Shown here piece by piece: positions 9,675 through 33,624 of a stretch of DNA of 64,000 nt. The DNA is from Methylococcales bacterium. GTDB lineage: Bacteria > Pseudomonadota > Gammaproteobacteria > Methylococcales > Methylomonadaceae. A model generated the notes under the pieces. The model was not told the DNA's origin. It saw only the letters and a program-made list of their open reading frames with translations, and searched no databases. Location of the stretch: positions 62,001 through 126,000 of the forward strand of contig JASMBU010000001.1 of assembly GCA_030753675.1 (NCBI GenBank). Reading direction: 5' to 3'. A program made the translations under genes and the position numbers. How positions within the stretch are numbered: position 1 is the stretch's first letter; each line of letters begins with the position of its first letter.

Positions 9675-10106
9675 ATGACACTTGTAAAAAGATTTTTAGT
9701 AGCACTAGTAATGACCTTTTCAATGGCGGCCATGACAACTTACTCATCTTCAGCAGCGGCTAAAGGTGTCGAAGAAAGTGGTCAGTCAGTTGCACAAGAG
9801 GTAATTAATATACTTACTGAAGCACAGAACAAAGCAGAAACAGCAACATCACTCGAGTTAAAAGGTATTCTTACGGATGCACGTCAAAAGTCTAAATTAT
9901 TGTCTGTTGGCGCTTTGGCTTCAAAAGTACAAAGAGCTTGGGACGGTATTCGTGTTGCTAAGAAACATTACAGTTATGCTAGTAAAGCAGCAAAAGGTAC
10001 AGGGTCTTACAAAGGCGCAACAGAAGCAGAGCATCGTGCTTTAGGTGCACCGCAAGTTGTTAAATCAATTGCTGATTTTGAAACAATTAAAGCAACAATT
10101 TTGTAA
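9675..10106 (+). CDS. Small secreted helical protein, first tandem paralogue
   Basis: Function is unknown. The 143-residue product begins with a signal peptide, positive MTLVKR then a hydrophobic core, with cleavage likely after a run of Ser and Ala near residue 29. The mature protein is about 114 residues with no cysteine or histidine cluster that would suggest heme. It is predicted mostly helical. It carries ARQKSK and a near-invariant block KAAKGTGSYKG followed by TEAEHRALG, shared almost word for word with the next gene. An AGGAAA SD site precedes the ATG. A strong terminator follows, so it is probably transcribed alone. Confidence 0.82.
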   Translation: MTLVKRFLVALVMTFSMAAMTTYSSSAAAKGVEESGQSVAQEVINILTEAQNKAETATSLELKGILTDARQKSKLLSVGALASKVQRAWDGIRVAKKHYSYASKAAKGTGSYKGATEAEHRALGAPQVVKSIADFETIKATIL

Positions 10107-10135: not shown

Positions 10136-10172
10136 TAGGCTGTCTGTTAAATAAACGGATAGCCTATTTTTT
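10136..10172 (+). terminator. Intrinsic terminator after the first tandem paralogue
   Basis: A 13-bp stem pairs 10136-10148 with 10054+100 onward (10154-10166), with two G-T wobbles and a five-base AAATA loop, and is followed directly by a T-run. Confidence 0.85.
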
Positions 10173-10194: not shown

Positions 10195-10208
10195 TTGATA
10201 TAGATCAA
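10195..10208. promoter_or_regulatory. Perfect FNR/ANR-type binding site
   Basis: The 14-mer TTGATATAGATCAA matches the FNR/ANR consensus TTGAT-N4-ATCAA at every defined base. Its centre lies 41.5 bp before the start point expected from the TAGAAT element at 10231-10236. That is the class II activating position known for FNR and CRP family proteins. It lies between the terminator of the first secreted paralogue and the start of the second, so the second gene is the likely target. Binding and oxygen control are inferred. Confidence 0.65.
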
Positions 10209-10230: not shown

Positions 10231-10236
10231 TAGAAT
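10231..10236 (+). promoter_or_regulatory. Candidate -10 element of the FNR-type promoter
   Basis: TAGAAT stands 5 of 6 to the sigma-70 -10 consensus and predicts a start near 10243, giving a leader of about 114 nt before the second secreted paralogue. No good -35 hexamer is seen, as expected for an activator-dependent promoter overlapped by the FNR-type site. An alternative -10, TAAAAT at 10239-10244, would place the site at about -49.5 instead. Confidence 0.45.
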
Positions 10237-10356
10237 GGTAAAATACAAGGAGAGAGTGTAATATCCTAGTATTTTAGTTGGAAGTATTTTAGACTATCTT
10301 TACATTTGATGGTTTAGATGTAGAAAATGAGTTTTTTAAAATTTTAAGGAAATTAA

Positions 10357-10791
10357 ATGATATTTGTAAAAAAATTTTTAGTAGCGCTGGTAATGACATT
10401 TTCAATAACGGCAATGATGACTTATTCATCTTCAGCTAATGCAGCCGAAAAATTAGCTCCCCAATCTGTTATTGCGGAAAGAATTGACGAGGCATTTCTA
10501 CACATAAAAACAGCTATTGGGCAAGATGAATCGTCAAAAGTATTGAAAGGCCTTGCTAAGGTTGCGCGTCAAGAATCTAAAGAATTATCTGTTGGCGCTG
10601 CGGAATTTGAATTGGATACAGTGAAAGATCTTATTGGTAAAGGTGGGAGACATTTTAGTTATGCGGCTAAAGCAGCAAAAGGCACAGGGTCTTACAAAGG
10701 TAAAACAGAGGCCGAACATCGTGCTTTAGGTTCACAGCACATAGATGAAGCAATAGCTAGTTTCGAAAATGTTAAAGCGGCGATTGAGTAA
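10357..10791 (+). CDS. Small secreted helical protein, second tandem paralogue
   Basis: Function is unknown. The 144-residue protein is a close relative of the product 250 bp upstream. The signal peptides are nearly identical (FLVALVMTFS core), both carry ARQ-x-SK-x-LSVGA, and both share KAAKGTGSYKG and TEAEHRALG. The middle helix region differs more. Cleavage is likely after ANA near residue 28. The bases just before the start (TTTTAAGGAAATTAA) are also nearly identical to those of the first copy, so the duplication included the ribosome-binding site. A perfect FNR-type site lies 150 bp upstream, suggesting oxygen-dependent expression of this copy. Confidence 0.82.
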   Translation: MIFVKKFLVALVMTFSITAMMTYSSSANAAEKLAPQSVIAERIDEAFLHIKTAIGQDESSKVLKGLAKVARQESKELSVGAAEFELDTVKDLIGKGGRHFSYAAKAAKGTGSYKGKTEAEHRALGSQHIDEAIASFENVKAAIE

Positions 10792-10822: not shown

Positions 10823-10858
10823 TAGGTTACTCGTTTTAGGCGGGTAGCCTATTTTTTT
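10823..10858 (+). terminator. Intrinsic terminator after the second tandem paralogue
   Basis: An 11-bp stem (10823-10833 with 10841-10851, two wobbles) and a seven-base loop are followed by seven T. Its lower stem (TAGG...CCTA) resembles the terminator after the first copy, so the terminator seems to have been duplicated too. Confidence 0.8.
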
Positions 10859-32934: not shown

Positions 32935-33624
32935 GTGTTAGAGCATTTGAAAACTAAAACGCCAGTCATTCGTAGCTTTATCAGGCGACAGGGGCGGATT
33001 ACCTTAGGACAACAATTTGCATTGGAACAATGGTGGGATAGGTACGGGTTATCTTATGAAAAACCGTTAGAGGCCGTAGCTACTTTTGGACGAGAAGCGC
33101 CGTTGATTGTTGAGATAGGTTTTGGTAATGGTCAGGCGCTTGCGGAAATGGCGCGTGTAAATTCAGAAAATAATTATCTTGGTATCGAGGTTCATCGTCC
33201 CGGCATTGGACATTTATTCTTGAATCTTGATAATCATCAAACTGATAATGTCAGGATCTATTGTCATGATGCGATAGAAATTTTGTCGGAAAAAATTAGT
33301 GATAATAGCCTAGCAGGATTACAGCTTTTTTTCCCGGATCCGTGGCCGAAAAACCGGCATCATAAAAGGCGTATTGTTGATAGTTCTTTTATTACGTTGG
33401 TGAGTCAAAAACTAAAGCCAGGCGGTTATTTACACATGGCAACGGATTGGCAGGCGTATGCTAAGGTGATGTTAAGTGTTGCCGGGAAAAATAAATCATT
33501 AGTCAATGAAAGCCCAGACAGCACTTTTTGTCTGCGACCAGATTATCGACCACTGACAAAATTTGAGCGTCGTGGTATTAGATTAGGACACGGTGTTTGG
33601 GATCTTATTTTTCGTAAAGCCTAA
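32935..33624 (+). CDS. trmB: tRNA (guanine(46)-N7)-methyltransferase
   Basis: TrmB forms m7G46 in tRNA variable loops using S-adenosylmethionine. The 229-residue protein has the SAM-binding VEIGFGNGQAL near residue 59 and the family motif FPDPWPKNRHHKRR with catalytic Asp. The C-terminus ends with TKFERRGIRLGHGVWDL. The start is GTG with an AAGGA SD site 7 nt upstream. Its 3' end overlaps convergent pyrE by 4 bp. Confidence 0.95.
   Translation: MLEHLKTKTPVIRSFIRRQGRITLGQQFALEQWWDRYGLSYEKPLEAVATFGREAPLIVEIGFGNGQALAEMARVNSENNYLGIEVHRPGIGHLFLNLDNHQTDNVRIYCHDAIEILSEKISDNSLAGLQLFFPDPWPKNRHHKRRIVDSSFITLVSQKLKPGGYLHMATDWQAYAKVMLSVAGKNKSLVNESPDSTFCLRPDYRPLTKFERRGIRLGHGVWDLIFRKA

Follow-up and report, generated by a model that had tools for sequence, protein, structure and literature searches.

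An apparent FNR/DNR-type promoter switch before a duplicated small periplasmic protein gene in an uncultured marine methane-eating bacterium

In Escherichia coli, most activated FNR sites are reported to lie near position -41.5, and the class II FNR promoters of narG, dmsA, and nirB are described as combining the TTGATN4ATCAA consensus, a center at -41.5, and a -10 hexamer (PMC3688515). In accounts of the Pseudomonas ANR/DNR regulon, two regulators, responding to oxygen and to NO, share one box type (PMC5398030, PMC4505428). The gammaproteobacterial methanotroph Methylobacter is reported to include hcp in its low-oxygen response, with hcp and hcr increased as much as 4,000-fold under hypoxia; its hcp gene is grouped with norR and a hemerythrin gene, and the words FNR and Dnr are absent from the main text of that study (PMC6977074). 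OPU3 is described as a marine pmoA clade (PMC4678205), and marine oxygen minimum zones are given as the source of its genome (PMC6222125). The genus considered here includes Methylococcales bacterium OPU3_GD_OMZ (genome G003). The OPU3 genome paper is reportedly that of Padilla and colleagues.

The locus described below has features of each of these systems. Its predicted promoter shares the consensus, the -41.5 center, and the -10 hexamer with the E. coli class II promoters, and a good -35 is absent; in contrast to the E. coli cases, the gene that it precedes encodes a periplasmic protein of one genome only, and its transcription start is a predicted one. As in Pseudomonas, two putative regulators, one for oxygen and one for NO, are matched with one box type, but here there are just seven perfect noncoding sites in a 1.7-Mb methanotroph genome. 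The likeness to the Methylobacter hypoxia/NO response lies in the kind of host and in hcp, which in this genome is divergent from a DNR-like gene rather than accompanied by norR and a hemerythrin gene.

The window, that is, the whole 64-kb stretch of DNA that was analyzed, lies on a 212-kb contig of a 1.72-Mb genome that is 99.5% complete; together with four genus mates, this genome makes up the five members of the genus that were examined. The host appears to be an uncultured marine methane-eating bacterium with a switch on a duplicated small periplasmic protein gene. The two paralogues, which have 53% identity and are encoded on the plus strand, are copy 1 (positions 9675 to 10106; 143 aa), which was present in all five members, and copy 2 (10357 to 10791; 144 aa), which has a signal peptide read by eye and a mature part predicted to form four helices. 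The gap separating them contains, at 10195 to 10208 of the plus strand, the box TTGATATAGATCAA, whose half-sites are perfectly palindromic and which, as the preliminary description had claimed, fits TTGAT-N4-ATCAA at all fixed bases, with zero mismatches. The -10 hexamer TAGAAT (10231 to 10236, plus strand) is located 22 bp downstream of the box end; by arithmetic, it predicts a plus-strand transcription start at 10243, so that the box center at 10201.5 falls at -41.5, the distance that had been proposed. A competing TAAAAT at 10239 to 10244 would place the center at -49.5. No usable -35 hexamer for TAGAAT was found at the usual spacers of 16 to 19, where one of six bases matched TTGACA (three of six at spacer 15), which fits the expectation for an activator-dependent promoter. 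The predicted 114-nt leader of copy 2 (10243 to 10356, plus strand) includes a likely ribosome-binding site, AAGGA, within its last 22 bases, and the best local alignment of the regions upstream of the two copies consisted of these last 22 bases only, 21 of them identical. The region upstream of copy 1 contained no box, its best site in 450 bp having two mismatches, in agreement with the preliminary description. Terminator-like hairpins were found on the plus strand after copy 1 (10136 to 10166), where the hairpin would isolate copy 2 from transcription of copy 1, and after copy 2 (10823 to 10851), the latter resembling, by eye, the hairpin that follows copy 1 in the genus mates. A search for RNA families returned two weak matches, both below gathering scores, which were dismissed.

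As judged from their sequences, the genome encodes both of the regulators expected to read such a box, one of them FNR-type with the four cysteines and the other DNR-like. Exactly two proteins in this genome scored above the cutoff for the Crp-type HTH family PF13545, and these were P0001 (FNR-like) and P0002 (DNR-like). P0001 aligned over its length with the FNR protein solved as 5cvr (E = 2.3e-37); its cysteines C12-x2-C15-x5-C21 and C114 fell on cysteines of 5cvr that we take to be the cluster ligands, and its recognition helix is ETVSR. Against the NCBI Fnr subfamily model NF008365, it scored 175.9 bits, below the curated cutoff of 228, and it was therefore filed as FNR-type and not as a member of the NCBI subfamily. 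The solved structure closest to P0002, which scored above the cutoff of no NCBIfam model, was the DNR protein 3dkw (150.7 bits; E = 4.5e-43), and the P0002 recognition helix is ETFSR. In E. coli, the Glu, Ser, and Arg of ETxSR are reported to make contacts with the FNR box (PMC4505428). The P0002 gene is located on the window's own contig, divergent from hcp.

The four genus mates had no PF13545 protein above the cutoff; G002 had one weak sub-cutoff match. In a direct search with P0001, 178 of 237 family genomes yielded a relative; this genome was among the 178, and the four mates were not. In G003, a contig (C162) that is 95% identical to the contig carrying fnr in this genome (C26) ends just short of the expected fnr start; G003 is thus unsafe as evidence of fnr absence, and the absence there may be an assembly gap. 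Contamination as the source of C26 was rejected, the first 4.4 kb of this contig being 95% identical to the G003 contig. C26 has a GC content of 0.393, inside the span of 0.381 to 0.449 for 25 stretches. As for tetranucleotide distances from the window, the value for C26 (0.166) is slightly greater than the maximum for ten 6-kb pieces of the window (0.154) and smaller than that for the hcp stretch, which is on the same contig as the window (0.174).

In total, the genome contained 29 perfect boxes, 22 inside and 7 outside ORFs, with ORFs of 60 aa or more counted. Across 14 strand-sites, three perfect boxes had a hexamer matching at least five of the six bases of TATAAT at exactly 22 bp, namely, those before copy 2, hcp, and a small lipoprotein gene; when the other spacers in the range 5 to 55 were counted at these strand-sites, the mean was 0.16. 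The box of hcp is in the region that separates this gene from the DNR-like gene. The third promoter, on C26 (L025, 2960 to 3200), combines a perfect box with the hexamer TAAAAT, 22 bp away, and precedes a gene for a 45-residue lipoprotein, which has a TTG start and is divergent from fnr. The fnr box is 24 bp from the fnr start and may repress fnr. The switch before copy 2 thus appears to be of a known kind, with the same design as that at hcp, which encodes a nitric-oxide-detoxifying enzyme. Among the five members of the genus, this genome alone gave a match for hcp, three gave one for narI, and two gave one for nirK above the cutoff; by the tool's count, both nirK matches span one in-frame TAA. 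The nirK gene in this genome is a 368-aa ORF on the fnr contig. The presence of nirK and narI makes NO plausible as an internal signal. On a separate contig (C18; L022, 744 to 1275), a gene for a 79-aa membrane protein with no family match has perfect boxes upstream at 894 and 944 and a one-mismatch site ending at 785, and it is flanked on both sides by ORFs that, by eye, are transposase-like. In another genus, an fnr gene (L112) has the identical 14-mer, TTGATATAGATCAA, upstream. Boxes preceded fnr in 4 of 11 cases from other genera (2 of them perfect), compared with 89 of 550 random pieces, which is suggestive only.

Chance matches exist, as the 22 perfect boxes inside ORFs indicate, and the window's other perfect box (33227 to 33240) is intragenic. 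If the box before copy 2 were likewise a chance palindrome, then copy 2 would use another promoter in the gap, such as TTTACA-N18-GAAAAT at 10299 to 10328; the region has seven sigma-70-like sites and shuffles had 6.5 on average, which is consistent with that reading. We consider it quite improbable, given that a perfect box with a five-of-six -10 hexamer at 22 bp occurred in none of 300 window shuffles and that two sister promoters with equal spacing lie beside the regulators' own genes. The window contained two perfect boxes, whereas its shuffles averaged 0.18, and shuffling of the 250-bp gap produced a perfect box in 2 of 3,000 trials. In the genus mates G002, G003, and G004, 1 of 16, 0 of 14, and 1 of 17 perfect boxes, respectively, were outside ORFs (2 of 47 pooled, versus 7 of 29 here; Fisher P = 0.023, or 0.07 without G003); the 15 perfect boxes of G001, a 65% complete genome, were left out of this placement. 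By density, calculated from rounded genome sizes, seven noncoding boxes compare with an expectation of about 0.6, which becomes about 0.9 when G003 is omitted. Although the four mates would predict 15.4 boxes and this genome has 29, this total was not relied on, because G001, with 15 boxes in about 1.0 Mb, is close to this genome in density. The gene that follows one of the seven noncoding boxes (L029, 2969; 608-aa ORF) is likewise preceded by a perfect box in G002 (L142, 1801; 485-aa ORF); since an FNR-type regulator was not detected in G002, the L029 box needs another explanation. A one-mismatch class II scan, which was kept out of the evidence, gave 24 strand-hits here versus 8 to 16 in the mates; among the 21 mismatched hits, 9 were known perfect boxes, and 8 of the other 12 were within ORFs. 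The class II activation geometry put forward in the preliminary description thus finds backing, as a predicted FNR/DNR-type promoter, in the two matching regulators, the shared architecture, and the noncoding box excess.

CRP sites are also palindromes able to sit at -41.5, and a cAMP-CRP-type or another regulator might use this site; such a reading is extremely improbable, as just two PF13545 proteins scored above the cutoff, one FNR-like and one DNR-like, TTGAT half-sites are FNR-type, and ETxSR is the pattern of both recognition helices. It is also possible, if somewhat unlikely, that the box is real and responds to NO only, with DNR, not an oxygen-sensing FNR, controlling copy 2, as the gene neighborhood suggests for hcp; copy 2 would then be a nitrosative-stress protein. 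The DNR-like gene is on the same contig and has its box region in common with hcp, and the Dnr site has been reported to be indistinguishable from the Anr box (PMC5398030), but the genome also encodes the FNR-type gene, whose own promoter has a perfect box, and the box sequence alone does not separate FNR sites from DNR sites. We regard as probable the proposal as a whole, in which the box works as a genuine class II operator and an FNR- and/or DNR-type regulator drives copy 2 at low oxygen or under NO. As read from the DNA, the regulatory prediction seems sound and the promoter of an ordinary, known kind, with binding, activation, and signal all predicted from it.

Copy 1 had the same setting in all five members of the genus, between an opposite-strand small ORF and a small ORF followed by a gene that is presumably mnmG. 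An orthologue of copy 2 was not found in any of the four genus mates, copy 2 being present in this genome alone; a genome-wide alignment query recovered the four mates, none with copy 2, and a single-protein query gave no match. At six sites, copy 1 splits this genome and G003 from the other three mates; copy 2 has the residue of the pair at three of these, that of the others at none, and neither at three. These residues mildly favor a duplication within the branch of this genome and G003. A third, more distant family member is encoded at 2241 to 2624 of the plus strand (127 aa from ATG), and the best box in the 130 bp scanned upstream of it has three mismatches. Matches to the family profile were found in 50 of 237 family genomes, five of them in this genus. 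A total of 16 distant homologue loci were fetched, of which L045 (wrong ORF) and L057 (a repeat of L007) were dropped; in the 450 bp upstream of each of the 14 distinct extra-genus loci, no box with one mismatch or fewer was found. The box had been taken as a clue to the whole family. That idea stands for copy 2 and fails for the family: copy 2 occurs in one genome only and the wider homologues examined have no box, and the clue is therefore to one copy.

Neither copy matched a Pfam or NCBIfam family above the cutoff. The small metal-binding protein SMBP (PF16785) was rejected as an identity for copy 2, the family model giving no match to either copy up to an E value of 10. The structure model of copy 2 is a predicted helix bundle (mean pLDDT, 84), for which Foldseek returned nothing at an E value of 0.001 or better; a second fold search returned generic four-helix bundles with Z scores up to 14.0, from which no function for copy 2 was derived, since such scores are common among helical bundles according to the tool's warning. 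His 99 and His 121 were invariant across six close sequences. The copy 2 product is thus a predicted four-helix periplasmic protein without a named family. In another methanotroph genus, three small secreted helical protein genes lie close together (L007, 1501 to 3070), and in L007 a gene for a small secreted protein scored 17.0 bits against SMBP, with a cutoff of 29. Arrays of small secreted helical proteins may recur.

The proposed history is that copy 2 would have arisen by tandem duplication of copy 1, retaining the ribosome-binding leader and the signal peptide, and would then have diverged to about half identity and acquired its own low-oxygen/NO promoter, while copy 1 would have kept its own upstream region, without the box. 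On a fall in oxygen or a rise in NO, the FNR-type [4Fe-4S] regulator, the DNR-type regulator, or both would bind TTGATATAGATCAA at -41.5 and recruit sigma-70 RNA polymerase to TAGAAT, at a promoter lacking a good -35. Copy 2 would be transcribed alone, between the two terminators, and would share one small regulon with hcp and the small lipoprotein gene divergent from fnr.

The fullest version, in which the duplicate periplasmic helix-bundle protein works only at low oxygen or under NO, within a tiny FNR/DNR regulon that includes hcp, in a methanotroph of an oxygen minimum zone genus, is doubtful as it stands. If it is true, then copy 2 would be a new periplasmic component for NO or metal handling in denitrification-linked methane oxidation. 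The promoter would tie a gene without an assigned role to a definite signal, in a genus with one genome from marine oxygen minimum zones, and it gives a short list of possibly coregulated genes, those for hcp, the small lipoprotein, and the 79-aa membrane protein. The locus would also illustrate compactly a gene duplication in which the second copy is placed under a different promoter.
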